IMG/VR virus record: IMGVR_UViG_3300030104_004476
Coordinates: 1-64,000 of that record
Reading direction: 5' to 3' (one strand)
DNA length: 64,000 nt
Source: a virus
In this document: positions 284-63,307 of the stretch, one piece after another
Layout: each line of letters opens with the position of its first letter
Position numbering within the stretch: the stretch's first letter is position 1
Made by a program: the position numbers and the translations under genes
Notes under the pieces: generated by a model
Told to the model about the DNA's origin: nothing
What the model saw: only the letters and a program-made list of their open reading frames with translations
Database searches by the model: none

Positions 284-368
284 AGATGTTGACAAAAAGG
301 TGCTAATTAAAGAGCTAACAAGACAAGGTGTTAAAGGTGTTAAGGTATACGCTACATTTTACAAATAA
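210..368 (+). CDS. Conserved 52-aa basic protein
   Basis: This short basic protein (starts MSKKRKLNSKNPKYK) is identical at the protein level to the product of 61526-61684. Every nucleotide difference between the copies is silent in this frame, including those in the overlap with the 137-283 frame, which directly supports real coding and purifying selection. No known domain was recognised; the basic N-terminus followed by a probable alpha/beta segment could bind nucleic acid, but that is a guess. The promoter-like motif for the next gene begins three bases after its stop codon. Confidence 0.75.
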   Translation: MSKKRKLNSKNPKYKTQAEIKATTKDVDKKVLIKELTRQGVKGVKVYATFYK

Positions 369-370
369 AA

Positions 371-393
371 TACGAACACTAACGGATAATATA
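371..393 (+). promoter_or_regulatory. Early promoter-like motif (TACGA-N8-GGATAATATA)
   Basis: TACGA at 371-375, eight bases, then GGATAATATA at 384-393, preceded by an ACAAATAAAA stretch. Same spacing and flanks as seven other copies in the rightward region. It lies 15 bases upstream of the gene at 408. Confidence 0.7.
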
Positions 394-407
394 ATAAATT
401 AAATAAT

Positions 408-602: not shown

Positions 603-613
603 TTAAATAAATT

Positions 614-1334: not shown

Positions 1335-1346
1335 TTACAAACTAAA

Positions 1347-1369
1347 TACGGATGAAAAAGGATAATATA
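1347..1369 (+). promoter_or_regulatory. Early promoter-like motif overlapping a gene start
   Basis: TACGG, eight bases, GGATAATATA, with the usual ACAAACTAAA upstream flank. The motif ends three bases before an in-frame ATG at 1373. The same arrangement is kept at 63027-63049. If transcription starts just downstream, the message would be leaderless or nearly so. Confidence 0.6.
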
Positions 1370-1372
1370 ATT

Positions 1373-1627
1373 ATGACAGACGAACAATTAAGAAAACTAA
1401 TAGATGGTCTTGCTAATCAAATGGTAAAACGTATTTATGGCGTAACTGAAGAGCAAAGCCAAACTACGTTCTATGCAGACAGAGATGAAGATCACGCTAT
1501 GGGTGAGTTAGCTAGGCTAATGACACTATCAGCTATATACGAAGACAGAGAAGAATATGAAAAATGTGCTGCGATTAAAAAACATATAGATAAAATAAAT
1601 AAAATTATAGATAGATATGATGCGTAA
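1373..1627 (+). CDS. Small UVR-motif protein
   Basis: An 84-aa protein from the ATG at 1373 (an in-frame ATG at 1352 would add seven residues that lie within the promoter-like motif, so the inner start is preferred). Residues about 55-78 match the UVR motif of UvrB/UvrC and ClpC-type proteins (EDREEYEKCAAIKKHIDKIN), which mediates protein-protein contacts. The copy at 63053-63307 differs at three residues. It overlaps the ligase start by 11 nt, suggesting coupling with DNA ligation or repair. Its exact role is unknown. Confidence 0.7.
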   Translation: MTDEQLRKLIDGLANQMVKRIYGVTEEQSQTTFYADRDEDHAMGELARLMTLSAIYEDREEYEKCAAIKKHIDKINKIIDRYDA

Positions 1628-2468: not shown

Positions 2469-2469
2469 T

Positions 2470-2952: not shown

Positions 2953-3067
2953 AAAGTTTAATAATATAAAATATGTTAAAGATAATTCTAAAAGAATTAT
3001 TATTGCAACATTAAGTGTTAATTCAGGTAGAGTATGGAGCGTGACAACAGCCCCTAAGAATAAATAG
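2924..3067 (+). CDS. Small basic 47-aa protein
   Basis: The frame opens 29 nt before the previous stop and ends at a TAG 10 bases before the next gene. The product is lysine-rich at its N-terminus (MNKDLKKRIKKFNNIK), followed by a short beta-like segment. No family was recognised. Part of the left arm of the dyad at 3041-3084 lies inside its 3' end, so regulation and coding overlap here. Confidence 0.5.
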   Translation: MNKDLKKRIKKFNNIKYVKDNSKRIIIATLSVNSGRVWSVTTAPKNK

Positions 3068-3084
3068 TAACAGGCTTATGTCAT
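3041..3084. promoter_or_regulatory. Long dyad spanning the start codon of the HTH gene
   Basis: Left arm TGACA-AC-AGCC (3042-3052) is mirrored by right arm GGCT-TA-TGTCA (3073-3083). The ATG of the 3078 gene lies within the right arm. Two further dyads with the same arms lie at 58821-58866 and 59349-59396. It could be a DNA operator or an RNA hairpin hiding the start codon. Confidence 0.65.
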
Positions 3085-3698
3085 ACGAAAGAAACCTAAA
3101 ATACCTAAATAATAATAGGATTACTTATAGGCGTTTACCTATAACTGATAAACCTACAATAGATACCAAAGAATACATGTTTTACGAAAACGGTACGCAT
3201 GAGTGCTATGAGTTATTCCGTTCGTCAGCAAAAATAACTACATATAAGTCTCTAAAATGGCACTTACTTGTTCTTTGGTATCTTAACCCTCAACTTGATC
3301 CTGATGACTTTAATAAGTTAGCAGAGGTTATATCTCATAAACCAAATGGTTTTGTAAGTTTTGAGTTGTCAGATAGAATATTAGATAAGATTATATATGG
3401 AGTTAGCATGGCTGATTTAGAGCGTCCACCAAAAAATAAATTACGTAAAGTTATATTTAAACCTTTTACTGGATTAACTAAAGAACAAAAATTATCTATC
3501 GTAGGATCATTAATAGGTGTAACAAATAAGATACATTCAGACGACATATATCAATGTATGATAGATACACATGACATAAATAAAAAGATTACAATAAAAC
3601 GGCTCTCTGAGCTTCTTAACGTATCACAACGAACTATACATAGACACATGTGTGAAGATTTAAAAAGAGAAAAAGAATTATTAAACCAACAATTATGA
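3078..3698 (+). CDS. HTH DNA-binding protein, candidate early regulator
   Basis: A 206-aa protein whose C-terminal part (about residues 168-200) forms a clear helix-turn-helix: ITIKRLSELLNVSQRTIHRHM, followed by a charged helix. The N-terminal 160 residues are not recognised and may be a dimerisation or replication-initiator-like domain. It overlaps the sigma-factor gene by 4 nt (ATGA), so the two are probably translationally coupled. A long dyad covers its start codon and recurs in the early/late control region, which suggests autoregulation and control of the switch (inference). Confidence 0.7.
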   Translation: MSYERNLKYLNNNRITYRRLPITDKPTIDTKEYMFYENGTHECYELFRSSAKITTYKSLKWHLLVLWYLNPQLDPDDFNKLAEVISHKPNGFVSFELSDRILDKIIYGVSMADLERPPKNKLRKVIFKPFTGLTKEQKLSIVGSLIGVTNKIHSDDIYQCMIDTHDINKKITIKRLSELLNVSQRTIHRHMCEDLKREKELLNQQL

Positions 3699-4447
3699 AA
3701 AAATATAACTCAAACAATTTCAGTAGATATAAAGTAGATGTTAAATCTTCTCAACCAACTAGTAAACATTATAGTGAATATACTAGAGATGAAATGGTTG
3801 CAAGGTTTTTACCATTAGTTGAAAATATTGCGCGTAAATTTAATAAAAGTGAATCATCAAGTGGTATATTATCTTTATCAGATATGATACAGTTTGGAAA
3901 TATAGGTTTAGTAAAAGCTGTTGATAAAATAGATTGGTTGAAATTAGGTCAATCAAACGATATCGAAAAAACACTAAAGTCATTTTTATCTAAACGTATT
4001 CGTGGAGCTATTCGTCGTGCTACAGATGCTAATCGTTCTGGTATGAGATTACCTGAGCATAAGCTTAACGAAATACGTAATGACTTTGAAAATCCTAATA
4101 ATTCAGAAATGTTTTTTAACTCAATGTTTCAAAGTATTGATTCAGGAGTAAACAACGATGAAAATCACGTGTATCAAATAGAAGATACATCAGGAGATCC
4201 AATGAAAAAAGAACACTTAGCTTATAAACTTCGTGACGTTATGTTACAATACTTAAATGATAAAGAATATAATGTTCTTTGCTTAAGCTTTGGTTTAAAC
4301 TGTGATAAGCTTTCTGCTAAACAGATCGCAGAAAAATTAGATATGAAAGGTAGTAGTTCTTATGTTCGTGTTTCACAGTTAAAAAAGCAGGCAATTGACA
4401 AATTAAAAAAGGTAATGGACTACTCGCAAGTAGTTGATTACCTGTAA
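3695..4447 (+). CDS. Sigma-70 family RNA polymerase sigma factor
   Basis: A 250-aa sigma factor. Region 2 lies at about residues 30-110, with the core-binding DMIQFGNIGLVKAVDKID segment and the 'RIRGAIRRATDANRSGMRLP' melting/recognition segment. Region 4 is C-terminal: 'YNVLCLSFGLNCDKLSAKQIAEKLDM' then an HTH. Sigma regions 1.1 and 3 look reduced. It should redirect host RNA polymerase to phage promoters. Given eight copies of one non-host promoter-like motif in the window and no phage RNA polymerase, it is the natural candidate for recognising that motif or the late variant. Confidence 0.85.
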   Translation: MKKYNSNNFSRYKVDVKSSQPTSKHYSEYTRDEMVARFLPLVENIARKFNKSESSSGILSLSDMIQFGNIGLVKAVDKIDWLKLGQSNDIEKTLKSFLSKRIRGAIRRATDANRSGMRLPEHKLNEIRNDFENPNNSEMFFNSMFQSIDSGVNNDENHVYQIEDTSGDPMKKEHLAYKLRDVMLQYLNDKEYNVLCLSFGLNCDKLSAKQIAEKLDMKGSSSYVRVSQLKKQAIDKLKKVMDYSQVVDYL

Positions 4448-4518
4448 GTTATACAAGTAAAATAAATTAAATTATTAATTTCTTATGTAATTATATATAA
4501 GAACAAACCATATACCAA

Positions 4519-5061
4519 ATGAAAGATTTAACCAAAAAATTAGCTGACATTCAAACTAAGCTAAAAGCAAAAAAATCTTCGTATAATTCTTTTGGAAAGT
4601 ACTACTTCCGTAAAGCCGAAGATATTCTTGAAGGTGTAAAACCTTTTTTATTACAACACAATGTTTATGTAACAACAACTGAAGAAATTGTTGGTATTGA
4701 ACCTGTACCAATGATGAAGACTACTGCTACTATTAGTGACGGCGAAAATGCTATACACGCCACAGCTATAGTGGGAGTTGACCTTGGTCAAAAAGGCATG
4801 CAGACGTCTCAACAGTTTGGGGCAGCATCTACCTATGGTAAAAAATATGCTCTTGGTAATTTATTTCTTATCGATGATACTGAAGATGCTGACGCTACCA
4901 ACAACCACGGTAAAGCTCAACAAGTTACAGTTAAGAAAAAAGCTAAGATAACTAAAGAGCAAATGGATAAAGCTGTTGAGTTCGTAAAAGGTGGAGGATC
5001 AGTTGAAGCTATTAAAAAGAAATACGAATTAACATCAGCGCAAATTAAACAACTAGCGTAA
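4519..5061 (+). CDS. ERF-family single-strand annealing recombinase
   Basis: A 180-aa protein. Residues 1-125 match the ERF superfamily (as in phage P22 Erf): 'KKSSYNSFGKYYFRKAEDILEGVKPFL' and 'QQFGAASTYGKKYALGNLFLIDDTEDAD'. The C-terminus is lysine-rich with a small helical domain resembling a SAP/HTH-like tail. ERF proteins anneal complementary single strands. It is followed with a TAATG overlap by a RecE-like exonuclease, forming a standard two-component recombination module. Preceded by about 70 bases of A/T-rich leader without a recognisable early motif. Confidence 0.85.
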   Translation: MKDLTKKLADIQTKLKAKKSSYNSFGKYYFRKAEDILEGVKPFLLQHNVYVTTTEEIVGIEPVPMMKTTATISDGENAIHATAIVGVDLGQKGMQTSQQFGAASTYGKKYALGNLFLIDDTEDADATNNHGKAQQVTVKKKAKITKEQMDKAVEFVKGGGSVEAIKKKYELTSAQIKQLA

Positions 5062-5795
5062 TGACGAAAGAAATTTATCATAGATTAAAAAACGACAAAG
5101 ACTACTACGGTGAGTTTGGTCAACAGTTTTTAAGCAATTCGGATATATCGACACTATTGAAAAATCCTAAAGACTTGCACAAACCAAGACCTAATAGTCC
5201 AGCGTTTTTAATTGGCGGTTATTTTCATACCGCAATACTTGAACCTCAAAAACTTAAAAGTTTTAAGATCGTTGAAGCTACAACTCGTAATACTAAGGCG
5301 TACAAAGAAATATCTGAAGGCGAAATGTGTTTACTTAAACACGAAGTTGACAAGGTAGAATTAATGACGCAGGTTATTATGGACAATGATGTTTGTAAAG
5401 ATCTTATTCAACCGGTACTAGGTCAAGTAGAATATGAAGAGCCACGTGTTGGTAAAATCCACGGTCAAATGTGGAAAGGTAAAGCAGATATAATTAACCA
5501 TGAAGAAAAACTTGTTATTGATCTAAAAACCACTGGTGATATAGATAGATTTCAATGGTCAGCTTCAAAGTATAATTATGATAGTCAAGCTTTCATATAC
5601 TCAACCTTATTTGGATACGAAATGCTATTCGTTGTAATCGACAAGGAGACGCATCAAATAGGTTTATTCGATTGTTCACCAGAGTTTTATAAACGTGGTG
5701 AAGAAAAAGTACGTAAAGCTTGTGATGCGTACGAGTTATTCTATCAAACAGAAGACTTTGACTACAAGCAACATTTATTAACTAAAACCCTTTAA
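5061..5795 (+). CDS. PD-(D/E)XK exonuclease, RecE-like
   Basis: A 244-aa nuclease of the RecE/exonuclease VIII C-terminal type. Residues about 135-155 contain the catalytic strand set 'GKADIINHEEKLVIDLKTTGD' (Asp ... Asp-x-Lys), and the QxxxY motif is seen in 'YDSQAFIYSTLFG' near residue 175. It would resect double-stranded ends to give 3' single strands for the ERF protein encoded immediately upstream (TAATG overlap). The length is typical of phage members of this family. Confidence 0.85.
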   Translation: MTKEIYHRLKNDKDYYGEFGQQFLSNSDISTLLKNPKDLHKPRPNSPAFLIGGYFHTAILEPQKLKSFKIVEATTRNTKAYKEISEGEMCLLKHEVDKVELMTQVIMDNDVCKDLIQPVLGQVEYEEPRVGKIHGQMWKGKADIINHEEKLVIDLKTTGDIDRFQWSASKYNYDSQAFIYSTLFGYEMLFVVIDKETHQIGLFDCSPEFYKRGEEKVRKACDAYELFYQTEDFDYKQHLLTKTL

Positions 5796-20471: not shown

Positions 20472-23400
20472 CTAGTCATGATAGTGGCATCTTTTCTTTG
20501 GTTTTTTAACCATTACTTTACATCTAAAACCATCAGACTTTATCTTAGTACAACGTTGTTGTGATTTTTTCTTTTCTTCTTTTTTCTTTTCTTTTATTAA
20601 CTTTTTAGCTTCGTCAACTTCTTTTCTAGTGTCAATACCTAAGCTCCACTGATCCCAACCAAGTCCAACAGCTACTCTTTGCCAAGTTTCGTTATCTTGA
20701 TTAAGCGCTTCTTTCATGTTGTCGATCTTCCTAAAACCTCTGTCAAGTGGTAAGTTAGTAGTAGCAGACACAACATTTCCAACAGCATCCCATACCGGAT
20801 TTTCTAAGTCAAAAGTACTCATCTCACCCATAACTTCTCTGTTGTACTTATATGTCTTAGTAGCACTGTAAAGTTTACGAGACTTAGAACCTATTGGTGG
20901 TGAAACATTTAAAGCGTCTACTAATACATTACCATAATCAGCTCTACTTTTCTTTTCGCTTTCTTGTATAAATCTATTTATAACATTTTTAAGTGTAGAT
21001 ACTACTGCTCCAGCCAAACCAGAACCACGTAGTAGTGAATCAATCATACCATTTAAAGTACGTTGTACTTTTTTATCTATTTCATCTTGCTCTGGTTTCT
21101 CATCATCAAATGCTAAAGCAAATATAGCAGACTGCAAACTTGAGAATATTATGTTTTGTATAGCTCCATAATATATTATTCTTGAAACATTACTTCTCCA
21201 GTCACCTCTACCAGCTGTTAAATCTCCAGCTGCTTTTTTAATCAAACGAGCGTACTGCATAGGTGTATTAGCAAACGCTAGTATTATACGACCAAGTGAC
21301 GATGCTTGTTGTTGTGATATACGATCAGGTCTAGCAGACTGCTGAGTTTCTTCAGCGATTTCCATAAAGTCTTCCATCGCTTGAGCTTCAGCTTCAGTTT
21401 GATCTAAACCTTGTTTAACGTATTTTTTAACTCTGTTTCTATAGTACGTAGAACCACCTGATGCAATAGCAAAGCTATCTGCAATTTGCGTAGGTAAGAA
21501 ACCTACTTTAAGTAAGTATTGTAAAGCAGCTTTCGCTTTGTTAGTAGCTCCAGCTACAGCACTAGCTATTTCAGCTTCGTTTATATTTGTTTGAAGTCCA
21601 GCACGTCTTTGTTTTAAAAAGTCTGAGTTAAATAAAAACGTAAAGTCTTTCCAATATTGTTTTTGATTAGCAAAAGCTTTAGCAGCTGCAAATATATTAT
21701 TATCTTCAAAGTTAATAAAGTTAACTGTAGATAAAGTCTGTAGTACAGCAGATCTAGCATTAAAGAACATGATAGCACCAACAGAGTTGTTAACCCAGTT
21801 GTTCCAAGCACCTTCAATACGACCCATACCTTTAGCTCTGTTAGTACCGTTTTCCATACGCCAAAGCATATTTTCTAACGCCTCTCTAAAGTTTGATCCA
21901 TACGTAGCTTCTATTTTGTTTAAGTTTTCAGGTGAAAATATTATTTCAACATTTTCTTTCCACTCAGCTAGGTATTTTTTACGACCCTGCTTATTAACTA
22001 CGTTTTGAAGATCAGAAGCTATACTCTCTACACTCCAGTATTCACCAGGTTCTATATATCCTTCTTTTTGCTTAGATATTTTCCCTATAGTATCAGCATA
22101 AGTTCTAAGATCTTGATCTGCTTTAACCGTGTTTGATAAAAAAGTAATATCACGCTTAGACAAACCTGGTATATCAAAACCTGCTTTATCCCAAAGATAA
22201 ACTCTAACAGCATTATCAAACGTAAAACCACTATCATCAATCATCTTACCTAGCTTCTTAGCTACTTTTGGTAACTCTTTACGTAAAGCTTTATGATCGT
22301 CAAGTATTGACTGACGAGCCTCTTTCATATCTCTATCAGCTCTAGCAAAAGGTTTAATTAAGGCTTTATTAAAAAACTCTAAGTCTTTATTACCTTGCTC
22401 ACCTTTACCAACAAAGTATCTTAATAAACCTGAAAAGTCATCAGCAGACGGCGGTACAAAGAACGTAAATCTACCTATGTTTTTACCACGCTTTTGAGCA
22501 CCTATTCTTGAGAATATTTTTTCAGCACCAACACCTTTAGTACGTTGAAGCATTTTATTAAAATCAGAGTTTAAATCTTTACTGAATTTAATTTTAGCTT
22601 GAACAGATTTACCTTTAATGTCTAGTTGATCAAACACGTGTTTAACAGCTTCAACATTAGGTAGGGCATCGTCTACAAAGTACATATCATTATAGCCTTC
22701 AGCATACTTATCTAGCATCCAAGCAGCTTTAGCATCACCAGAGCTATTACCCAAACCTGTTATATTTTCAAAAGGTATATCTATATCTTTAGTTTTTAAC
22801 CACTCGTGTATTGCTGGAGCAGCTTCAGCAGGTCTAGCTGTTAGTATAAATACATTTTTATTACCATACTTCTTAATTTGATTTTTTATCTTTTGAAGTA
22901 ATGGTCCATCAACGCCACCTCTAACGTTTACAAAGTCTGTAAAATCAAACTCGTAACCATCAGCAGCAAACTTAGGACCTTGTAAAGGCCAATCACCAGA
23001 CGATATTCTTTGCACATTATCACCTTTTTTAGCTATAATAAAGTTTTCACCATCTATAATCAACGTTTCATCAAAGTCAAACGTAGACATACCTCTAGCC
23101 GCTTTACTGTACATATTAACAGATCTAGCGTTAGATATAACCTCGCTAAGCTTTGAGTTTGTAGAACTTAATTCTTTTGAAAATTTTATATCAGCTATGC
23201 TTTCTATTAATGTTTCATTAGCTTTAGCTATATCTTTTATATTATTTACATTAAAAACTTCAGCTCCTGTTTTATTTAGTGTTGGAAAAAATATTGTATT
23301 TAAATCTATAGGTTTTCCAGTATTTATTGGCGCATATTTAGTGCCTACAGCTGCTAATCTAACTATAGCAATTAAACCCATAGGTATATTGTCTAATTCA

Positions 23401-26400
23401 CCTTTTAATATTCTAGGTACTATTGAATCATAAAAAACGTTAGGCATAACATTTTTCATACCTGAAGCGTTTATATTATCATCGGCTTCAAGCGTAATAG
23501 AAAGCTGCATGTAAGAAGCTTTTAAAATTTTTGCAAAATCATCAACTTTACCCTCTACAGCTGCATCTAAACCTTTTTTAACAACGTTGTTCTGTGGTTT
23601 TGTATGCTCTTCTCTAGACTCAACATTATATAAAGGATTTTTTTTGTTACCATCTTTTATAGTATAACCCATATATGGTGCTAATATTCTAGCAAACGTG
23701 CCCATATTATTGCTAGTGTCTAAAGTAAACTCTGCAAAAAACCATTTATCATTTTTATTTTCTTTTAAGTAAACTTCTAAATCTTTAAAAAAGTCTATAA
23801 TTATATCAAGTCTTTTTTCTTGTTGTTTTACAAAATCTTTATTGTTAAATATATCAACACCGTTAATTTTGTCTAACAACTGTCCTGTTTTGTGGTATTT
23901 AACCCTAGATTTTGTTAAGTTATCTTTTAAATAGCCATTTTTACCTTCTTTTACTAACTCTGCAAACTGCGCGTCTGTTTGAAAAAACCCTGCTCTTACG
24001 ACACCACCAGCCATTGTTACTTTTATTATATCTCTATGTTTAGGATATTTAGCTAAAAATTTATTAGCTATTTCAGATCCTGCTTCTAAAAAAGTTTTAC
24101 CATTTTTGTAGATAGCGTCTAAATCTCTTTCACCAAGATATACTTTATCTTTTTCAGCTTTTTGAACGTTTATTTTTGGTATGTTAGTACCATGTTTTTT
24201 TATAGGATTATATGTAAAACTACTAGCGTTTTCCGTTAAATCTTTGCTAAACATAACTTCAGACATACCACTACGTATTCTAGCTAGTGATGGATCTGTT
24301 TTACGAAGTTCTTGATTAGTAATTGTTTTACCAAGTAAGTCTGCGAGCGCTATAATTCTAGCCGATGTGTTTCTATTGCGCGTAGGTTTACCGTCAATAA
24401 TATCTACTAATGCCAAAAACTCAGCGTCTTTAATATTAGTACGCTTAACTTGGCCTTTTAAACCAGCGGCTGTTTTAGCTCTAGTTTCTTTTTGTGTATA
24501 TAAAGCTTGTAGTACAGTTCTAGGTACACCAGTAGCTTGACCTTCAACATCAAAACCTTGTGGTAAAGCATCAATAACTAACTGAGCATTTTTGTTAAAC
24601 CAGCGCTGTGCATTAGCAACTTCAGCTGTTGTTAAATTAGCTTTACTTTTAATCTTAGCTGGTGATATACCTAACAACTCTCCTACGGCGTTTGTAGCGG
24701 CATTAGGGACACTTTTAAAGCTCGTTAATGTATTAGGATCTATATTAGCATCAGACACCTCAGACGCAACCTTATCAGCTATATTTAACTCACTAGCTAA
24801 TACTTTAGCTTTAGTTTTTCTTTCAGGCTGTTGCTCAACTGTTTGTTCAGCTGCAACACCTCTAGCTTCTGTTACGTCTTCTTCAAACTCTGTCTTGAGT
24901 ATTCTGTTACCGGCTTCAATAGAACGTGCTGGTAAGAATTTATTTATATAAGCAGCTAAAGGTACACCAGACTCAGGCTTGTACTCTCTAATAAGATCAA
25001 ATATACCTCTTTTACCAGTTTCTATTTCATCAATAACTAGCTGTTCATCATAACCAGGTACATCTCTAAATCTTCTAGCTATACGAGTGGTAATAGGTTT
25101 AAACGCTTCTAATATATCAAATAGACCAGCTTCACCTTGTTGTTCATATACTTGTTGTACTCTATCAGAAGCTTCTTTAGAGAACTGAACTCTAGTGTCT
25201 AGTGGACCAGGTTGTTTACTTCTTATCTCTTGAATTATTTGGTTTTTCTTTATATCGCTTATGTCAGCTAAAGTTAGTTGATCATTTTTAACTTTGTTAG
25301 CTATACCTACTAAAAACTTAATAGCGTCTTTTTCACTAGCTAAGTCAATATCAATATCAGTAGCTTCTTCAGTACCCTTATGTATTAAGTGCGCTAATAC
25401 ACCTCCAAATTGAGTATTTTTCTTAGCGTTTAAGTTTATATTACCAGCCCCAACCTCTTCAAAGAAAACAGCAACAACCTCAGATTCTTTTAGCGATCCA
25501 TCTGCATTTCTCTCAGCAAGTTTTATCACTCTATTGTAAGCGTCTCTGTTGTTTTCTTTTGTCCAAGCTAATACAGCATCTGACAACGGCTTGTAAAGCT
25601 CAGGTTTAAGCCCTATAGCATCAGCAAAAACAACATGTTGAAGTTCGTGTGTCTTGGTTTCTAACCTATCAGCTTCAGCCATATTCTGAACGTTAATTAC
25701 AGAAACAGGTTTTCCATCAGGCCCAGGCGCCATAAAGCCATGAGCTCCATTTTCAATTTCTTCTAAAGCTTCTGCAAGCGCCTCTCCTTCTAAATTTTTA
25801 TTTACAAAGTCTATACTTTGCTGTTTCGTGTTGTGAACAACTAAAGTATTTCTAACGCCTCCTTTTTCAACTTTATTTTTCTTTTTAATATCCTTGTTTA
25901 TCTGTTCGGTATTAAAAAGTACTCTAGTTTTATTTTCAATTTGCTCTACGCTAGGGTCAGATATACCATCTACCTCTAACAAATCTTTTAAAGCTTGATC
26001 TTCTAATCTTTTTACTTCAGCTTTATTTTCGTTTCTAAATTTATAAATTTGCCAAGGACTATTCCAAGTTTTTTCTTTTTTAAACTCGTTTAAACCGTTT
26101 TCTATAGCGTCAAACTCAGTTTTTAACTCTAGTAATTTCTTATCTTTAAGAGCGTCAGGCATAACTTGATCTTCTAGTATCTTGTTAGCCTCTATTCTTA
26201 TATCCTCTTGTCTAACTATAGCGCTGGTAAATTCTCTTTTAGCTCTAGCAGATACTGTTTGAGCTTTACCTTCTAAAGTTTCCACTTCTAGATTTATAAG
26301 CTCTTGCAACTCTTCTATTCTACCTTCGTTTTCTTGTACTATCTCTTTTCTTCTAGTATCGTTTAGTGGAGAGTATAATCCGTTTTGAAGTTTTTTATTA

Positions 26401-28643
26401 AACGAAGCTAAGTCGGTTTGCTCTTCTCTTAAGTTTCTTAACGTTTCCTTTTGCTTAGCATCTGAAAACTGAGATAGATAAATACCTTTCGCGACTGGAA
26501 CAGATCCCATTGTGGTACCAAACATATAGCCAGTAAATCGAGAGTGATTCATGTCCTGACTCCAAGGTCTACCGTTTAAAAGGTTTTGAAAGCCTGTTGT
26601 TAAAGCCTCACCTTCTCCTTCAGCAATTACACCTAAAACACCCTTGGTGGTGATCATGTTGTTTTTAACATAACTATCAACACCTTTACCAAACAAGTCG
26701 TTTTTGGCAACGTTATTGGCTAGCGCTCTTTTTGCGTTTCTCAGCAACATATAAGTAGGAGCAGCACCAAAGACAACCTCAGCGCCTGCTGCGCCTAGTG
26801 ATGTAAAGTATTTTTTAGCTTTACTAGTCTGAATTGCTCCTGGCAGCTTTTCTTCTTGAACCATATCTTGGTATTGACTACCAAAACTTGAAGTACCAAT
26901 AATTCCCCAGCCAGCAGGTGTTGATAATGCTGCAAATATAGAAATTTGATTAGCAAGTTCTTGTGTCGCAAATGATCCAAAGTTTTCTAAAGATGAAAAA
27001 GCATCATCAAAAGATACGTCTTTTCTGTAAGACTCTCTTATGTTTTGTATTTTGTCTTTAAAATCTTGTGTACCCTGTTCGTCAACACTAGGGTCTCCAA
27101 ATAGTTTAGAAGTACCATAACCAGCATCCACAGCTAATTCTACAAATCCTAAACCAGCATCAACAAAAAATTCTTCTACACCGTTATAATTTCTTTTTAC
27201 TAAATCTAATTGATCTGGTAGAGCTTCTATAAACCCTTTATCCACATTGGAGATAACATCGTTGCTAACAGCCATGTAGTTGTTGTACATCTCATTGTAC
27301 TCTTTGTAATCTTTTTGATATTGATTATAAACGCTTTCAGGTATCATCCTACCGTTTTCAAGAGTTACAAGCTCTTCGCCCGGCTGCATTTCAGTACCAG
27401 TGTAGTCGTAATCTTCACTCTCAAATCTTTGTAAAGCTATATCTAATTTTTTTCTTAATGCACCTGTTTCTAATTTGTTAGCTAAAGATTCTGCATATAC
27501 AGTTTTTGAAGCATACTCTCTTTGGTATTCGCTAAGACCTAGTTCTATGTTATTTTTTAATTGTTTTTTTAAATCAGAGGATATAAACTCAAAGTCATCA
27601 AGCTCTTCTAGCTTTTGGTCAGTATTTTTAATCCAAGTTTCTTTTTTAGCTTCAGCAACTAGTACTTCTTTAGCTTTTATTTCAATCTCCTCTTTTGAAG
27701 GGTTCGCTTGTACTCCTCCTAAGGCGTCAAAAGCTTGCTTTAGTTCTTTTTCGTAAGGTTGTGTAGTTTTAATTATCTCTCTAGTTGGAGTTGAAAACTT
27801 AACATCCATACCTCCTCCTTGAAAAACTTTTCTTGTCTCTGTTTTAGGAGCAAATATATCTATATCGTTACCAAATTCATCTTTAGGAAAAAACTTATCG
27901 TTAATTTCTTTTAGTTGCGTAGAATCTGGAGCGTTATCAGCAAGGAACTTTTTACTACTTATACTTCTTTCTGCTCTACTTTTAGAATATAAAGCATCTG
28001 TTTCAGTTGTAGTGTTTTTATCAATAAAAGATATTAAGCTATTATAAGCGTTTTCTTTTCTTGAATTTATATTATCGTGCTTAGCTACTAAACTTTTTTC
28101 TGTAGAGTTTAAAGATGCCAAACCAGCGCTCTCTCTTTTTTCAAGAGCCATTTTTGTTCTTGTGTCAGGAGCTGTATACTCAGCACCTATATTAAACTCA
28201 ATATCTATTTCTTTTTCATTAGGAGCTAGAATCTTAACAGCATTAAAAGATTTTATATCATCTTTAAATATATTAGTTGTTTCAAACTTGAAACCTGGAT
28301 ACTTAATACTTAAATCGTCAATAGCATCGCTATCACTTTTGTCAAAAAAGCTATAATCTTTTTGTTGAGTTATTTTTCCAGTTAAAGGATCTGTAACGTT
28401 ATAAGTAAGCCAATTATGCTTATCTTTTACGTCATCGAACGGTACATCCAAAGAAGTATCTTCCAAGTTGGATGCCGAAACGTCGAGTGCTGTAGCCTCT
28501 GACGCCACAGCCACACCCGGCTCCGCAACGTCGTTTGTCTTTCCCTCGTTGTTAGCATTATATTGCTCAATAACTAACTTTATGTTTCCTTCTGGCTCGC
28601 CAGCGTCTAACATACGCTGAACAATAGCTTGTAATTCTTCCAT
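20472..28643 (-). CDS. Giant multidomain internal virion protein (2723 aa)
   Basis: The largest gene in the window. Visible parts: long coiled-coil/helical N-terminal third with a hydrophobic stretch near residues 580-720; a zincin-like HELQH at residues 999-1003; a HAD-type phosphatase-like domain with DFDETL at about 1856 and 'VFILTARPAEAA' after it; alpha-rich C-terminal region with hydrophobic helices; and a terminal Cys/His cluster (RCTKIKSDGFRCK ... RCHYHD) likely to bind zinc. FSK(E/D)(L/A) recurs at residues 1154, 1465, 1821 and 2020, between modules. It resembles large polyvalent/ejected proteins of podoviruses. No polymerase motif was seen. Confidence 0.75.
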   Translation of the reverse strand: MEELQAIVQRMLDAGEPEGNIKLVIEQYNANNEGKTNDVAEPGVAVASEATALDVSASNLEDTSLDVPFDDVKDKHNWLTYNVTDPLTGKITQQKDYSFFDKSDSDAIDDLSIKYPGFKFETTNIFKDDIKSFNAVKILAPNEKEIDIEFNIGAEYTAPDTRTKMALEKRESAGLASLNSTEKSLVAKHDNINSRKENAYNSLISFIDKNTTTETDALYSKSRAERSISSKKFLADNAPDSTQLKEINDKFFPKDEFGNDIDIFAPKTETRKVFQGGGMDVKFSTPTREIIKTTQPYEKELKQAFDALGGVQANPSKEEIEIKAKEVLVAEAKKETWIKNTDQKLEELDDFEFISSDLKKQLKNNIELGLSEYQREYASKTVYAESLANKLETGALRKKLDIALQRFESEDYDYTGTEMQPGEELVTLENGRMIPESVYNQYQKDYKEYNEMYNNYMAVSNDVISNVDKGFIEALPDQLDLVKRNYNGVEEFFVDAGLGFVELAVDAGYGTSKLFGDPSVDEQGTQDFKDKIQNIRESYRKDVSFDDAFSSLENFGSFATQELANQISIFAALSTPAGWGIIGTSSFGSQYQDMVQEEKLPGAIQTSKAKKYFTSLGAAGAEVVFGAAPTYMLLRNAKRALANNVAKNDLFGKGVDSYVKNNMITTKGVLGVIAEGEGEALTTGFQNLLNGRPWSQDMNHSRFTGYMFGTTMGSVPVAKGIYLSQFSDAKQKETLRNLREEQTDLASFNKKLQNGLYSPLNDTRRKEIVQENEGRIEELQELINLEVETLEGKAQTVSARAKREFTSAIVRQEDIRIEANKILEDQVMPDALKDKKLLELKTEFDAIENGLNEFKKEKTWNSPWQIYKFRNENKAEVKRLEDQALKDLLEVDGISDPSVEQIENKTRVLFNTEQINKDIKKKNKVEKGGVRNTLVVHNTKQQSIDFVNKNLEGEALAEALEEIENGAHGFMAPGPDGKPVSVINVQNMAEADRLETKTHELQHVVFADAIGLKPELYKPLSDAVLAWTKENNRDAYNRVIKLAERNADGSLKESEVVAVFFEEVGAGNINLNAKKNTQFGGVLAHLIHKGTEEATDIDIDLASEKDAIKFLVGIANKVKNDQLTLADISDIKKNQIIQEIRSKQPGPLDTRVQFSKEASDRVQQVYEQQGEAGLFDILEAFKPITTRIARRFRDVPGYDEQLVIDEIETGKRGIFDLIREYKPESGVPLAAYINKFLPARSIEAGNRILKTEFEEDVTEARGVAAEQTVEQQPERKTKAKVLASELNIADKVASEVSDANIDPNTLTSFKSVPNAATNAVGELLGISPAKIKSKANLTTAEVANAQRWFNKNAQLVIDALPQGFDVEGQATGVPRTVLQALYTQKETRAKTAAGLKGQVKRTNIKDAEFLALVDIIDGKPTRNRNTSARIIALADLLGKTITNQELRKTDPSLARIRSGMSEVMFSKDLTENASSFTYNPIKKHGTNIPKINVQKAEKDKVYLGERDLDAIYKNGKTFLEAGSEIANKFLAKYPKHRDIIKVTMAGGVVRAGFFQTDAQFAELVKEGKNGYLKDNLTKSRVKYHKTGQLLDKINGVDIFNNKDFVKQQEKRLDIIIDFFKDLEVYLKENKNDKWFFAEFTLDTSNNMGTFARILAPYMGYTIKDGNKKNPLYNVESREEHTKPQNNVVKKGLDAAVEGKVDDFAKILKASYMQLSITLEADDNINASGMKNVMPNVFYDSIVPRILKGELDNIPMGLIAIVRLAAVGTKYAPINTGKPIDLNTIFFPTLNKTGAEVFNVNNIKDIAKANETLIESIADIKFSKELSSTNSKLSEVISNARSVNMYSKAARGMSTFDFDETLIIDGENFIIAKKGDNVQRISSGDWPLQGPKFAADGYEFDFTDFVNVRGGVDGPLLQKIKNQIKKYGNKNVFILTARPAEAAPAIHEWLKTKDIDIPFENITGLGNSSGDAKAAWMLDKYAEGYNDMYFVDDALPNVEAVKHVFDQLDIKGKSVQAKIKFSKDLNSDFNKMLQRTKGVGAEKIFSRIGAQKRGKNIGRFTFFVPPSADDFSGLLRYFVGKGEQGNKDLEFFNKALIKPFARADRDMKEARQSILDDHKALRKELPKVAKKLGKMIDDSGFTFDNAVRVYLWDKAGFDIPGLSKRDITFLSNTVKADQDLRTYADTIGKISKQKEGYIEPGEYWSVESIASDLQNVVNKQGRKKYLAEWKENVEIIFSPENLNKIEATYGSNFREALENMLWRMENGTNRAKGMGRIEGAWNNWVNNSVGAIMFFNARSAVLQTLSTVNFINFEDNNIFAAAKAFANQKQYWKDFTFLFNSDFLKQRRAGLQTNINEAEIASAVAGATNKAKAALQYLLKVGFLPTQIADSFAIASGGSTYYRNRVKKYVKQGLDQTEAEAQAMEDFMEIAEETQQSARPDRISQQQASSLGRIILAFANTPMQYARLIKKAAGDLTAGRGDWRSNVSRIIYYGAIQNIIFSSLQSAIFALAFDDEKPEQDEIDKKVQRTLNGMIDSLLRGSGLAGAVVSTLKNVINRFIQESEKKSRADYGNVLVDALNVSPPIGSKSRKLYSATKTYKYNREVMGEMSTFDLENPVWDAVGNVVSATTNLPLDRGFRKIDNMKEALNQDNETWQRVAVGLGWDQWSLGIDTRKEVDEAKKLIKEKKKEEKKKSQQRCTKIKSDGFRCKVMVKKPKKRCHYHD

Positions 28644-31133: not shown

Positions 31134-34100
31134 TTAAACATCAAATCTTAGATTAAAACTAACAAATGTTGTTCCATTTTGATGAGTAACATCAAATGAA
31201 ATTATTCTACTACCAGGGTCTTGTGAAAGATGATTAAAACTTAAGCTAACAGTAGCTGTTCCACCGCTAACTGATATACTATTAGAAGCTAACCAGTCTG
31301 GATTTCCTAGAGACCAATTGAAACCTCCATCCGCAGTATCTACGTTCGCAACGTCAACAAGGGTTGGAGCGGTGTTACCATTGTAAGTAAAGTTTAAGTC
31401 TATAGCCATAAATTGATCATTGAGCTCTTGTGCTGAACTTTCTGATGCTTGAAGACTATAAAATGCCATACCACTAGTACTAGAAATACCTTGATTTATA
31501 ATAGCCATGTTTGTATTTCCATCCCAGATTAAAGTAGGTACTGTTGCTTCTTGTATAATAGTAATTAAATCATTTTGATTAGTCGCACTGTTTGGTAATC
31601 CTAATTCATTCAAAGTATCACCACTTACTCCACCGTTCCATATAGCTAATTTTGCTTCTCTATTACTACCGGTAAAGTTAGGTTCTAATACAAGTTTTAT
31701 ATGATGCTGTTTACCAACAGTGTTGCCATCAAAAACTATCTCCGATCCCGCAGCTACACTATCAACGGTTAAGAAATTATTAGAATCACTAATAGTGGGT
31801 TCAAACAATGTATACACTCCATCTATTACTTGAGCAAGACCTTCTTTGTATATTTTTACAGTAGGTGTTGCTGTACCATTAGCTCTACAACCTACTTGAA
31901 CATTACTTAAATCATCAGATTCATCAACAGTTTTAGAAACTTGACCTGGACTAAAACCAGCAAACACTTTAGCTTTTTGTTTTATCGTAATTATATCATC
32001 AGCGGTGCTAGTTGACGAATCATTATTTAATGGATGAAAACCTTTTATTTTAAAATATCTATCAATAGGAAATTCTTTTTGCCAAGACTCATCTTGACCT
32101 AAAACAGCAAAGTTTTCACTTATATTAAAGCGTATTTCATGATTTACGTCTTGGACTAAAGATTCAACACCGGCAGCGTTGGTTTGAGTAAGGCTAGATA
32201 AATAAACAGCATTTAGATTTGAAATCCAAGACGAGTCTACTTCTCCCAATTGTTCACTACTACCACCTATCAATTGAACAGTAAAGTCTAACTCTGGGTT
32301 ATTAAACCATGTTATTGGATAATCATAATCATAAACACTAGCTGTTAAACCTGCACTAGAATTACTTTCCCAATAAGTACCAGTTGTTCCAACAGAATTA
32401 CCATATAACTCTACTAGCTGAGAAGTATCACTAACCTCTAGTTCTCCAATAGTGTTATTAACAGTACTATTAGTAAAAGTTGCTGTACCGTTAGCTAAAT
32501 CACCTGAGATAAGTCTAAAGTCAAACGTGTGAACTGTAACGTCATATCCAGCAACTTGAACTACTTTAAAAGTATCACTTACCGCATTGTTTGTGGGATG
32601 TATAACTGTAATTGTTGCTGATCTTTCAGAACCAGTGTTATTTTGAGTCACGGTAAAGTTATTTAAGGCTTCATATTGACTTGAAAAAGTAGCATCATAG
32701 TCAACTGAAGTTGCAGAAAAATTAATCCAATCTGGAGTAGCTGCTGTTGCATCGTCAACAAGTACTAAAGAGTATCCATCACTGCTATCAAAATCTTCAG
32801 GACTAGCATACGTTAATATTGTTTGTATAGAAAACGTATTACTAAAATCATATGCTAACTTATAAGTTGTGCCATTGTTTGTCGTAGTTCCTAAAAAACC
32901 TACATCAGTCCAAGGTTGCAAGTTACCAGCAGTGGTAAGAAAACCAACGTCAAAAAATTGTTCAGCCCAACCGTTATCAGTAACTTCTTGATCATAATTA
33001 ATATTGGTAACTGTAAAAGATCCATATAAATTAACACTATCACCAAGTTCTTGATAAATAGTAATAGAATCATTAGGTACACCACTTGTATTGGTGTCTG
33101 AAGTTATACTTAACGTTGCTTCAAGCTGTATGCCAAATATGTTAGCATCAGCAGAAATAGCCACAGCGCTACCATTAAGCCAAGTTACGTCATTTATAGT
33201 AAGCCATTGTGGAGAGTTTGCAGGGAATGTTACAGCTGCTGTAAAAGGACCTAGATTATTTGTAACAGGCAAACTTACACCACCACCATTAGGTTCCATG
33301 TGGTAATAACCAGTGTAAAACTCACATACACCTATTTGAGAGTCTGTAAATATATCTATGTAGTTGTTGTCATCAATAAAACCGTCGATATTAGGAATAT
33401 AATCTATAACAACTCTTCTACCAATTGTACCATCATCACCTTCATATGAAATACTATATTGCGACAACTCTGATGCTGGAACATCGAGGTTTATTGATGG
33501 ATTAGTTCCAATTGGAAAGAAAACATCTCCATTAGCAGTAAACGTAAAATCTACAAGAGAAGTAGATATACTAGGAACAATAACAGCTGAAACATTTAAA
33601 ATTAAATGGTTTATAGTAGCAGCATCACTCATTGTTGCGTTACCTAGTCCAATATAAGAACCAGGGTTATCAGCAAACTGTAAAAAACCATCTCCACTAA
33701 ATGGATTAAAGTTGCCTATAATCCCAACGCTTCCACTCCAAAGTACACCTGACTGAACAGCTACAGGATCTAAGCTTAAAGCAAATGTTGTAGTAACTCC
33801 AGATGATATTGTTAAAGCAGAAGAATCAAAATTAATAGTTCCTGTAACTGTATTAGAACTACCGTAAGCTGTACCAGTATCTGCAAAAGTAATACTAGTT
33901 ATGTAGTCGGTTAAAACTAAAGCTAACGCAGAAAACTGTTCTGCTGCTATAGTATTACCACTTGCTGGCGTTATAGTAAATGTACCAGTGCTAGGTAGTG
34001 CAGAAATATTGTAAGAAGAAAATCCAGTTGAAGACCAATTTGTACCACCAGTTACTGTTATAATAATGTTACCACCTAAAACAGGTGTTGTACCAGAAAC

Positions 34101-34316
34101 AGAAGGTGTTCCAGAAATAGTACCTATACCTTGAACAGAAAACTCTTCAAAATCTACATTACCACTAGCAGAGCCAGCATCAGCTGCGTTTGTAAAAGTC
34201 GTAGCTTCTCCTTTTAAGTAATTAAACCACTTACCTTCTTTTTTAACAAACTCATCAACCTTGCCTGACTGTAAGTCGGTAATAATCTTTTCTACATACC
34301 ATCCGTTAGTTGCCAT
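31134..34316 (-). CDS. Tail fibre/adhesin with BACON-like repeats
   Basis: A 1060-aa, strongly beta, Asn/Thr/Ser-rich protein with few Cys and no signal peptide. Several ~90-residue units end in the BACON-like pattern of a 'WL/WI' strand, then '(S/E)R.A.I.V.H.(T/N)..' and '...ITI.Q': for example PDWINFSATSVDYD ... GSERSATITVIHP, and the C-terminal PDWLASNSISVSGGTATVSL ... RIISFDVTHQNG. BACON domains bind carbohydrate or mucin-like ligands and occur in tail proteins of Bacteroidota phages, including crAss-like phages. A host-surface-binding fibre is the best reading. Confidence 0.65.
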   Translation of the reverse strand: MATNGWYVEKIITDLQSGKVDEFVKKEGKWFNYLKGEATTFTNAADAGSASGNVDFEEFSVQGIGTISGTPSVSGTTPVLGGNIIITVTGGTNWSSTGFSSYNISALPSTGTFTITPASGNTIAAEQFSALALVLTDYITSITFADTGTAYGSSNTVTGTINFDSSALTISSGVTTTFALSLDPVAVQSGVLWSGSVGIIGNFNPFSGDGFLQFADNPGSYIGLGNATMSDAATINHLILNVSAVIVPSISTSLVDFTFTANGDVFFPIGTNPSINLDVPASELSQYSISYEGDDGTIGRRVVIDYIPNIDGFIDDNNYIDIFTDSQIGVCEFYTGYYHMEPNGGGVSLPVTNNLGPFTAAVTFPANSPQWLTINDVTWLNGSAVAISADANIFGIQLEATLSITSDTNTSGVPNDSITIYQELGDSVNLYGSFTVTNINYDQEVTDNGWAEQFFDVGFLTTAGNLQPWTDVGFLGTTTNNGTTYKLAYDFSNTFSIQTILTYASPEDFDSSDGYSLVLVDDATAATPDWINFSATSVDYDATFSSQYEALNNFTVTQNNTGSERSATITVIHPTNNAVSDTFKVVQVAGYDVTVHTFDFRLISGDLANGTATFTNSTVNNTIGELEVSDTSQLVELYGNSVGTTGTYWESNSSAGLTASVYDYDYPITWFNNPELDFTVQLIGGSSEQLGEVDSSWISNLNAVYLSSLTQTNAAGVESLVQDVNHEIRFNISENFAVLGQDESWQKEFPIDRYFKIKGFHPLNNDSSTSTADDIITIKQKAKVFAGFSPGQVSKTVDESDDLSNVQVGCRANGTATPTVKIYKEGLAQVIDGVYTLFEPTISDSNNFLTVDSVAAGSEIVFDGNTVGKQHHIKLVLEPNFTGSNREAKLAIWNGGVSGDTLNELGLPNSATNQNDLITIIQEATVPTLIWDGNTNMAIINQGISSTSGMAFYSLQASESSAQELNDQFMAIDLNFTYNGNTAPTLVDVANVDTADGGFNWSLGNPDWLASNSISVSGGTATVSLSFNHLSQDPGSRIISFDVTHQNGTTFVSFNLRFDV

Positions 34317-58866: not shown

Positions 58867-58914
58867 TAAAATTATATTGTAAATGTATATAGTTTGTATA
58901 GCCCCCACCTATCT

Positions 58915-58934
58915 GATACCCAACGTGTTACGTA
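58915..58934 (-). promoter_or_regulatory. Diverged leftward promoter-like motif (TACGT-N8-GGGTATC)
   Basis: On the minus strand TACGT, exactly eight bases, GGGTATC. It keeps the spacing and layout of the early motif (TACGA-N8-GGATAAT) but differs in sequence. Placed about 130 bases upstream of the late operon; a candidate late promoter. Confidence 0.45.
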
Positions 58935-59028
58935 AAATCGTTTTATATAACGCCACGGGCCCCCTTTTATATATATTTGTATAGAATTTTTTACCTTTTT
59001 GTTTTATATTATATATATACAAACTAAC

Positions 59029-59050
59029 TACGAAACGTTTTGGATAATAT
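59029..59050 (+). promoter_or_regulatory. Early promoter-like motif 1
   Basis: TACGA (59029-59033), eight bases, GGATAATAT (59042-59050), preceded by ACAAACTAAC. Leader of about 30 bases to the start of the gene at 59080. Confidence 0.7.
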
Positions 59051-59079
59051 CTATGTAAATAATCTAATAAATAAACATT

Positions 59080-59520: not shown

Positions 59521-59569
59521 CAATTATTATTCACTAAACGATTTACCTACTTTTAACTTACAAACTAAA

Positions 59570-59592
59570 TACGACTTAAACTGGATAATATA
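59570..59592 (+). promoter_or_regulatory. Early promoter-like motif 2
   Basis: TACGA, eight bases, GGATAATATA, with ACAAACTAAA flank; 13 bases before the start at 59605. Confidence 0.7.
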
Positions 59593-59604
59593 ATAAACTT
59601 AAAT

Positions 59605-59832: not shown

Positions 59833-59843
59833 TACAAAACAAA

Positions 59844-59866
59844 TACGATTACTATTGGATAATATA
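59844..59866 (+). promoter_or_regulatory. Early promoter-like motif 3
   Basis: TACGA, eight bases, GGATAATATA; an ~80-base leader follows to 59945, containing a candidate RNA pseudoknot. Confidence 0.7.
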
Positions 59867-59883
59867 ATTGTAATAAATAAAGC

Positions 59884-60481: not shown

Positions 60482-60493
60482 ATACAAATTAAA

Positions 60494-60516
60494 TACGATT
60501 ACTTTTGGATAATATA
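60494..60516 (+). promoter_or_regulatory. Early promoter-like motif 4
   Basis: TACGA, eight bases, GGATAATATA with ACAAATTAAA flank; about 20 bases before the start at 60538. Confidence 0.7.
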
Positions 60517-60537
60517 TATGACAAAAGCTTATTAAAT

Positions 60538-60762: not shown

Positions 60763-61287
60763 ATGGAATATATGTCAACAGAAATTAGATCAGCGCGAGA
60801 AGCAATGACTATCTTCAAGATACTAGGTATCAAAGAGATTACAACAGATCGCCAACGTAAAAACGGTACTCAAGTATTTGAACTACCAATTAAGCAAATG
60901 TATCAAAACTTATTGCCAAAACCTTTGCGTTTTGCTACATATAAAGCAGGTTATGTTAGAAACGTAAGTCCTTATAACTCAAGTCCTTACCAAATTAACA
61001 AGACTAAAAAGCGACCAGCAGGTACAAATGGCTATCACTTTGAAACAATAGAGCGTATACTAATACCAAGCTGGGAAGAGCGATTAATATACTTAGCTAA
61101 GTTTATTATCAAAAACTACTACCAAAAACCTACATACTTGATGAACGACTATGTTATCGAGTGTTTAAAGCAAGAGCGCGAAGTAAATAATGATGCGCTG
61201 CAATGGGGTTACTTTGTTAATCCAGAATCTACACCAGTAGACGATATAAAAGTAATTATTAACGGACATAGATATAATTTATCATGA
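60763..61287 (+). CDS. Unrecognised 174-aa early protein
   Basis: 174 aa; a second ATG at 60772 (MSTEIRSAREAMT) is an equally good start. It has 'REAMTIFKILGIKEITTDRQRKNGTQVFELPIKQMYQNLLPKP' and a basic middle (NKTKKRPAGTNGYHFETIERILIPSWEERLIYLAKFI). No domain was recognised. Its last codons overlap the next gene (ATGA). Basic character suggests nucleic-acid binding. Confidence 0.65.
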   Translation: MEYMSTEIRSAREAMTIFKILGIKEITTDRQRKNGTQVFELPIKQMYQNLLPKPLRFATYKAGYVRNVSPYNSSPYQINKTKKRPAGTNGYHFETIERILIPSWEERLIYLAKFIIKNYYQKPTYLMNDYVIECLKQEREVNNDALQWGYFVNPESTPVDDIKVIINGHRYNLS

Positions 61288-61684: not shown

Positions 61685-61858
61685 ACGAGGTGAGGGTGGT
61701 AGCGCGTGAGATGTGTATGTAGTGAATTGGCTCGACTAGTGATAGCAACGAAACTACAATCTTACTCACTTGGCAGAACGGCAGGATAAAGCAAAAGAGA
61801 TAACAGACCACAGGCATGTGCTTGAAACTCAATGAACCACACCTGCCCGACCTCGTTT
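61684..61858 (+). ncRNA. Structured RNA candidate, ~175 nt
   Basis: The ends close in a long interrupted helix: AACGAGGT with ACCTCGTT, AGG with CCT, GTGGT with ACCAC. Inside are GTGAG/CTCAC, GTAGT/ACTAC and CACA-GGCA-TGTG hairpins. GC content is higher than the surroundings, the 3' end is T-rich, and no reading frame fits. The whole element is absent from the homologous site at 368-370. It is not a tRNA, tmRNA or RNase P RNA by its motifs. Orientation as + RNA is inferred from context. Confidence 0.6.
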
Positions 61859-61873
61859 TATTTACAAATAAAA

Positions 61874-61896
61874 TACGAACACTAATGGATAATAAT
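61874..61896 (+). promoter_or_regulatory. Early promoter-like motif 5
   Basis: TACGA, eight bases, GGATAATAAT; counterpart of 371-393. It begins 15 bases after the structured-RNA candidate and precedes the gene at 61921. Confidence 0.7.
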
Positions 61897-61920
61897 ATAA
61901 ACCAAATAAAATAAACCAAT

Positions 61921-62684: not shown

Positions 62685-63045
62685 AGCACAAGTTAGATTT
62701 GCTACACGAGAAGAAGGAGTATCGTTTAGTGAACACCCAAAAGTTATACACGCACAGTTTTATGTGCATCACGATGGTTATCCAGAAGGATTAGGTTTGG
62801 AAATAGCTGAGTCATTAACTAAATATAAAAAGATAATGCACTGGGAAATAGAAGAGCTGTTTACTAGACACGGCGATCTTGAGTATGTGTATTATGTGTG
62901 GCAACACCCAATGAAAACTACATGGATTAGTATATTTGAAGAAAAATATAACGAAGATTTGACCAAGTCTGATAAGTGTATATTCGTAGGTGAACCAAGT
63001 AATCTTATAGATAAATACAAACCTAATACGAATGAGCAAGGATAA
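62674..63045 (+). CDS. Conserved phage protein (MSTRAQVRF), second copy
   Basis: 123 aa starting MSTRAQVRF at 62674; an upstream in-frame extension within the preceding gene is not conserved in the left copy and is rejected. Very similar to 942-1334 until the C-terminus (YKPNTNEQG). Function unknown. Confidence 0.75.
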   Translation: MSTRAQVRFATREEGVSFSEHPKVIHAQFYVHHDGYPEGLGLEIAESLTKYKKIMHWEIEELFTRHGDLEYVYYVWQHPMKTTWISIFEEKYNEDLTKSDKCIFVGEPSNLIDKYKPNTNEQG

Positions 63046-63049
63046 TATA
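63027..63049 (+). promoter_or_regulatory. Early promoter-like motif 8 overlapping two genes
   Basis: TACGA, eight bases, GGATAATATA. It overlaps the end of the preceding gene and ends three bases before the ATG at 63053, as in the left copy. Confidence 0.6.
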
Positions 63050-63052
63050 ATT

Positions 63053-63307
63053 ATGACAGATGAACAACTAAGAAAATTAATAGATGGTCTTGCTGATCAA
63101 ATGGTAAAACGTATTTATGGTGTAGCTGAAGAGCAAAGCCAAACTACGTTCTATGCAGACAGAGATGAAGACCACGCTATGGGTGAGTTAGCTAGGCTAA
63201 TGACACTATCAGCTATATACGAAGACAGAGAAGAATATGAAAAATGTGCTGCGATTAAAAAGCATATAGATAAAATAAATAAAATTATAGATAAATATGA
63301 TGCGTAA
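63053..63307 (+). CDS. Small UVR-motif protein, second copy
   Basis: 84 aa from ATG at 63053; three substitutions relative to 1373-1627. UVR motif at residues ~55-78 (EDREEYEKCAAIKKHIDKIN). The start at 63032 is possible but lies within the promoter-like motif. It overlaps the ligase start by 11 nt. Confidence 0.7.
   Translation: MTDEQLRKLIDGLADQMVKRIYGVAEEQSQTTFYADRDEDHAMGELARLMTLSAIYEDREEYEKCAAIKKHIDKINKIIDKYDA

Follow-up and report, generated by a model that had tools for sequence, protein, structure and literature searches.

A set-wise variable early promoter code and a candidate injected sigma module in crAss-like phages

The early genes of cultured crAss-like phages are transcribed by an RNA polymerase that the phages inject (PMC10136315), and cargo proteins reside in the capsid of a crAss-like phage (PMC10172136). 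In the Crassvirales that carry such a virion polymerase (phi14:2 gp66; the crAss001 cargo proteins gp47, gp49 and gp50), the late strand encodes a giant protein behind the muzzle region, at the location of the cargo proteins, the early genes occupy the opposite strand, and early transcription is presumed to be set by the injected factor. Another described group is that of the zincin polyvalent proteins, which are injected effectors whose own protease is believed to process them, and whose theme includes the jump-starting of transcription and fusion to N4-type polymerases (PMC5512222). Our search of the open-licence literature turned up no early promoter code of a crAss-like phage, no description of a virion-delivered sigma factor, and no mention of the motif analyzed here in either annotations or papers.

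The window, that is, the whole 64,000-nucleotide stretch of DNA that was analyzed, covers 64.0 of the 66.4 kb of a viral contig (a record of 66,408 bp). Structural genes occupy the minus strand from 13.4 to 58.8 kb, and replication genes and small early genes are found on the plus strand. The muzzle protein matches the Pfam family crAss_MUZ (E 2.9e-21), and the portal protein is 42-53% identical to those of a Manatee Spring phage genome, Maribacter phage Panino and Elemovirus. Its muzzle protein, its conserved portal and TerL proteins and its two opposed gene blocks identify the window as a crAss-like phage. It shares with the Crassvirales that carry a virion polymerase the muzzle and portal homologs, the giant late-strand gene after the muzzle region and the opposed early strand; it differs from them in that its giant protein has a zincin motif and a module resembling sigma domain 2, and in that we found no polymerase motif or domain in it. 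The first 5.2 kb of the record (1-5200) return at its end (61329-66408) with 79-94% identity and an offset of 61,328. In sister contigs the ends overlap at unrelated positions, by 73-139 bp (99-100% identity) or by 2-4 kb (about 91%), and diverged end copies of one region are also present in the records of G001 and G004. Because these overlaps fall at arbitrary points, the genome is best read as circular, with a size of about 61.3 kb, and the tail of the window as a sister strain that was reached when the assembly ran round the circle.

The initial annotation reported eight copies of a rigidly spaced motif on the plus strand, and this description was exact. TACGR-N8-GGATAAT has eight sites in the window with zero mismatches, all on the plus strand, against 0.015 expected from first-order Markov shuffles, and there is no further exact match on either strand of the window. 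A 25-bp form that includes the upstream flank, ACAAA-N5-TACGR-N8-GGATAAT, likewise occurs eight times, and a blind gapped word-pair search of the early region ranks TACGA-N8-GGATA first. With two mismatches permitted the pattern is not above chance in the window, and the signal therefore resides in the exact sites. The eight sites had been treated as independent. However, the pairs 371/61874 and 1347/63027 each show one promoter in two strains, since the tail of the window, where the record wraps round the circular genome, belongs to a sister strain; the eight sites therefore represent six promoters. Their placement just before small early genes was also correctly described, with the exception that the sites at 1347 and 63027 abut the next ATG so closely that its A is the predicted +1, which would make these messages leaderless, and that the second of these sites also lies partly within the 3' end of the ORF before it.

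Table 1. Coordinates of early promoters and of genes and protein segments discussed in the text
Feature	Coordinates	Strand	Details
Early promoter	361..397	+	ACAAATA (361-367), TACGA (371-375), GATAAT (385-390), predicted +1 A at 397; other-strain copy of 61874
Early promoter	1337..1373	+	ACAAACT, TACGG (1347-1351), GATAAT (1361-1366), predicted +1 at 1373; other-strain copy of 63027
First early promoter, adjoining the divergent region	59019..59055	+	ACAAACT, TACGA (59029-59033), GATAAT (59043-59048), predicted +1 G at 59055
Early promoter	59560..59596	+	TACGA at 59570, predicted +1 A at 59596
Early promoter	59834..59870	+	TACGA at 59844, predicted +1 G at 59870
Early promoter	60484..60520	+	TACGA at 60494, predicted +1 G at 60520
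Early promoter	61864..61900	+	TACGA at 61874, predicted +1 A at 61900
Early promoter	63017..63053	+	TACGA at 63027, predicted +1 at 63053 = A of ATG (leaderless)
Conserved box of the divergent late-strand promoter	58876..58887	-	TACATTTACAAT here, usually TATATTTATAAT
Protein of 206 aa with C-terminal HTH, possible co-factor	3078..3698	+	always directly before the sigma gene
Stand-alone phage sigma, 250 aa (rival reader)	3695..4447	+	Sigma70_r2, r4, r3.0-like RIPEHKLNEIR
Giant late protein, 2723 aa; zincin-type polyvalent, candidate injected factor	20472..28643	-	last gene of the structural operon
Zincin metallopeptidase motif HELQH	25635..25649	-	aa 999-1003 of the giant protein
Sigma domain-2-like part, candidate -10 reader	24888..25193	-	aa 1151-1252; AlphaFold, structure searches, profile match
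Rest of the sigma module	24204..24887	-	aa 1253-1480; predicted structure, partly of good predicted confidence

Enrichment of the motif in related genomes, which had been proposed as a check, is evident. A search with an early protein (60763-61287) gathered 23 related viral contigs, and all 60 copies of TACG-N9-GGATAA in them lie on the early strand; among other spacings there were none at 4-8 and 10-14 and one at 15. When the sites are aligned, ACAAA spans -36 to -32, TACGA -26 to -22 and GATAAT -12 to -7, with a G at -13 and a purine as the +1 base. This purine, 7 bp after GATAAT, is present in 213 of the 217 sites, and the histogram of ORF-start ATGs peaks at the +1 base (27/198), as expected for leaderless messages. 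The ACAAA flank that had been noted is invariant, and the motif extends further than was described, to a near-invariant purine. The pair ACAAA-N19-GATAAT occurs one to eight times per genome on the early strand in 16 of 18 genomes, with at most 0.1 occurrences expected by chance, and the remaining two genomes (G002 and G020) carry diverged forms of it. Contigs without TACGA keep this pair at an unchanged distance. Because the pair persists where TACGA is missing, TACGA, which had been taken for a core element, is better understood as an added spacer element of one clade within an otherwise ordinary arrangement.

This arrangement consists of a -35 and a -10 element with 17 bp between them, a single gap length across most genomes, and a purine located some 7 bp downstream of the -10 element. 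Judged on sequence, it is the layout of a sigma70-type promoter (-35 ACAAA, 17 bp, -10 GATAAT, purine at +1), in which the predicted +1 of several genes is the A of the start codon. The earlier statement that these are not Bacteroidota sigma-A promoters also holds, as the -10 element is GATAAT and the sites have GGATAATATA where the -7 box of the flavobacterial sigma-A consensus, TAnnTTTG (PMC9723704), would lie. The promoter motif is absent from the cultured relatives MW202828, Panino and Elemovirus. Several A2-type contigs, examined round their ends or in part only, have no promoter cluster, probably because their early region is missing or outside the examined stretch. In the early region of the related circular phage MW202828 (L009 43300-50000, L010 5000-15851), the perfect palindrome GTGTCGTTAACGACAC is repeated about 15 times; many copies directly precede small early genes, and this operator-like repeat perhaps serves the repressor annotated in that phage.

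Whole promoter sets switch jointly between related phages. TACAA replaces TACGA as a set in G004, AGATAAT is the set in G012 and G018, and in G006-G008 AGATAAT occurs without TACGA. Other genomes have ACGAA instead of ACAAA (G020), (A)TATATT instead of GATAAT (G002), or ACAAACAAA without TACGA (G024-G028), and promoter variants are mixed in G001 and G010. The fact that the sites of a genome change together suggests that the reader is encoded by the phage and differs from one phage to another, and it agrees with the earlier proposal of a phage-specific transcription system. Shared ancestry accounts for part of this pattern, since across 18 genomes the capsid protein shows the strongest correlation with promoter distance (0.75) and the whole giant protein reaches just 0.23.

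The best candidate for the reader is part of the giant late protein, which these phages probably inject. Every near-complete relative encodes one giant per genome, with a conserved C-terminal third preceded by exchangeable modules, and in the giants examined a regular expression finds HExxH followed by variable modules. The likeness to zincin polyvalent proteins extends to very large size, multidomain composition, late expression, FSK-like repeats and module swapping; the difference is that the word "sigma" is absent from the text of the survey of those proteins, which mentions no sigma domain (PMC5512222). A [VIM]xFSK-like motif is repeated between the modules of the giants (e.g. RVQFSKEAS, VMFSKDLTE, DIKFSKELS) and possibly marks processing sites, and a HAD-like FDFDETL segment lies further along the protein. 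In the cultured Elemovirus the giant gene, whose similarity to the one in the window is weak, is annotated as "structural protein".

The module that follows the zincin motif (aa 1150-1480) has a large family of relatives in viral contigs (187 matches); no relative was found among 50,697 phage records or in the genomes of 84,980 species of bacteria and archaea. Searches for a sigma factor by sequence alone, using single sequences or profiles against PDB, Pfam and a sigma HMM, yielded no usable match. An AlphaFold model built from 62 sequences has a pLDDT of 77.5, and its residues 2-103 match sigma domain 2: all 50 structural matches listed are sigma factors, headed by E. coli sigma70 (Z 8.8, 2.7 A over 90 residues). 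Foldseek matched the module to isolated domain 2 of SigE and SigA (probability 0.98), and a profile-profile comparison with phage sigmas is in register, with a weak E-value of 0.0025. The module is thus predicted, from its modeled structure, to carry the sigma domain 2 fold. Structure search found no sigma domain 4 or other -35 reader in the giant, and the C-terminal part of the module is without an assigned fold; this part may read the -35 element or contact upstream DNA.

Contigs that were selected solely by the presence of the module in their giant include ten with early promoters, and 46 of the 49 early sites in these contain GGATAAT. Position -13 is G-dominant in all 17 genomes with the module subtype versus two of nine with other giants (Fisher 5e-5, a value that ignores kinship). 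If the module reads the promoters, a sigma-2 domain is predicted at the same place in the giants of AGATAAT phages, despite the lack of sequence similarity. The D-type (G008-type) giant of an AGATAAT phage is without detectable sequence similarity to the module; its model, based on four sequences, has a pLDDT of 57, and about 70 in the relevant part. The best 28 structural matches to it are all sigma factors, cover residues ~25-145 behind the zincin motif and reach Z 7.2. This giant may also fold as sigma domain 2, although our confidence in this is low because unrelated helical folds can reach the same Z. Several genomes count against the association: G016 keeps GGATAAT although its sigma-2 half has diverged, G004 uses GGATAAT without the module subtype, and G061 and G064 have a common C-terminal domain but do not share the upstream element.

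The initial annotation offered two readers, a phage sigma factor and a virion-injected factor. The 250-aa protein of the early operon is a true sigma factor with r2, r3.0-like and r4 regions, and its nearest solved relative is FliA/sigma-28, whose -10 element, GCCGATAA, resembles GGATAAT. It is encoded in 22 of 30 contigs, near-complete ones included, and has only distant matches in cultured phages. Together with the host core enzyme it could read the promoters as a self-reinforcing early or middle class, kick-started by a host promoter or by packaged sigma. This was our favorite candidate at the outset and it was demoted by alignment against the promoter types. The gene evolves much faster (49-69% identity) than its neighbors, the recombination genes (55-86%) and the primase-helicase (75-95%). 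The correlation of its distances with promoter distances is among the lowest (0.16, against 0.75 for the capsid protein), and its lineages do not follow promoter type. Its r2.3-3.0 region is identical in G008 (GATAAT) and G002 (TATATT), as well as in G013 (TACGA, GGATAAT) and G007 (no TACGA, AGATAAT), and its r4 recognition helix is identical in G020 (ACGAA) and G001 (ACAAA). Since the DNA-reading regions do not differ between phages with different -10 elements, the 250-aa sigma is probably not the reader of the early promoters; moreover, its gene lies inside an operon driven by these promoters, and the protein therefore cannot act first unless it is packaged. We consider its role as early reader rather unlikely. 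It seems more likely that it serves another gene class, perhaps through the strongly conserved divergent late promoter TATATTTATAAY, whose box hardly varies where the early promoter does. The injected factor is the better supported of the two proposed readers, given the sigma-2 module in the giant, and the phage sigma gene fails to explain the variation.

A co-activator acting with host RNA polymerase and a host sigma, in the manner of T4 MotA, would place the recognition of TACGA elsewhere, for example in the HTH protein that invariably precedes the sigma gene, and the switches would then reflect differences in activator or host. TACGA does lie within the spacer, a segment in which a sigma factor contacts few bases, and types D and E have unusual HTH-protein residues in common. 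However, the HTH protein does not clearly track the promoter types and was dropped as a reader, the -10 element and the base at -13 switch as well, which an upstream activator would not explain, and GATAAT is not a flavobacterial sigma-A box; our comparison thus makes this reading improbable. TACGA followed by GG at a fixed distance also recalls the T7 promoter (TAAATACGA...GG), and cultured crAss-like phages do deliver an RNA polymerase by injection (PMC10136315); on this reading, a T7-like polymerase or a giant virion polymerase would recognize a compact promoter (cf. TAATACGACTCACTATAGGG) and start at GG. The spacing, however, is one base shorter than in T7-type promoters, GG is not conserved (AG, TG and TATATT types exist), and the conserved purine and the position of the ATG fit a start 13 bp after GG. 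The large proteins of the clade contain no DxDxDGD motif, the giant-protein signature of the Crassvirales virion polymerase; a search for Rpb1-type polymerase gave no match while its control was positive in 14 of 14 genomes; and PF00940 (T7-type polymerase) gave no match either, which is a weak test because its control was positive nowhere. With no polymerase found and GG not conserved, this candidate was also dropped as very improbable. That the motif is an operator or a signal for RNA processing or translation would agree with its closeness to start codons and with the palindromic operator-like repeat that precedes early genes in MW202828. It is hardly credible for a motif that is not palindromic, has no paired arms, is confined to a single strand and has a 36-bp footprint with -35/-10/+1 spacing.

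The reading that we favor, with modest confidence, is that the sigma module of the giant protein reads the early promoters in this crAss-like clade, in which no RNA polymerase gene was detected. The motif, its layout, its set-wise switching, and the sigma-2 fold and its position were computed here. Under the proposed mechanism, the giant zincin polyvalent protein would be made late and packaged, and it would enter the next host by injection together with the DNA. The sigma-2-containing module behind the zincin motif could then join the host core RNA polymerase and direct it to the early promoters. This would activate the early operon, among whose genes is that of the stand-alone sigma, which would serve a later class of genes. 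The giant has a zincin motif and a sigma-2 module, and neither a motif nor a domain of a polymerase was found in it, so that RNA synthesis would fall to the host enzyme. The promoters resemble those of FliA/sigma-28 and of phage sigmas (phiEco32 type; T4 gp55) in their -35/-10 layout and GATAA-type -10 element, and a stand-alone phage sigma is present here as well; the differences are that the proposed reader is a sigma-2 module in a giant late protein and that the promoter code differs between sister phages.

A further step, to which we give slightly less than even probability, is that this clade swapped the injected RNA polymerase for an injected, exchangeable sigma module within a zincin polyvalent protein, so that exchange of the module rewrites the whole early promoter code. 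The promoter and its candidate reader address the question of how crAss-like phages without a virion polymerase seize transcription, and the pairing is testable because sister phages differ in their promoter/reader combinations and start sites are predicted. If the reading is true, the injected module would be a virion-delivered sigma, and the clade would offer a naturally occurring collection of orthogonal sigma/promoter pairs that work with the RNA polymerase of Bacteroidota.

Several other properties of the genome were observed. The divergent region (58900-59020) contains G/C-rich tracts, with minus-strand runs such as GGTGGGGGC and GGGGGCCC, in a genome that is otherwise AT-rich, and the interval between early and late promoters is much longer in G004 and G001. 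A 180-base, G/C-richer insert (61686-61861) lies before the promoter at 61874 and is missing from the other-strain copy (358-371); it has no Rfam or tRNA match, and Rfam and tRNA scans overall returned nothing. A 1060-aa BACON-domain protein (31134-34316, minus strand) directly adjoins the muzzle gene. Finally, a 920-aa late-strand protein (16040-18802, minus strand) ends in a C-terminal type IX secretion sorting domain (Por_Secre_tail), which is unusual for a phage, and relatives of this protein are encoded in nine other genomes.
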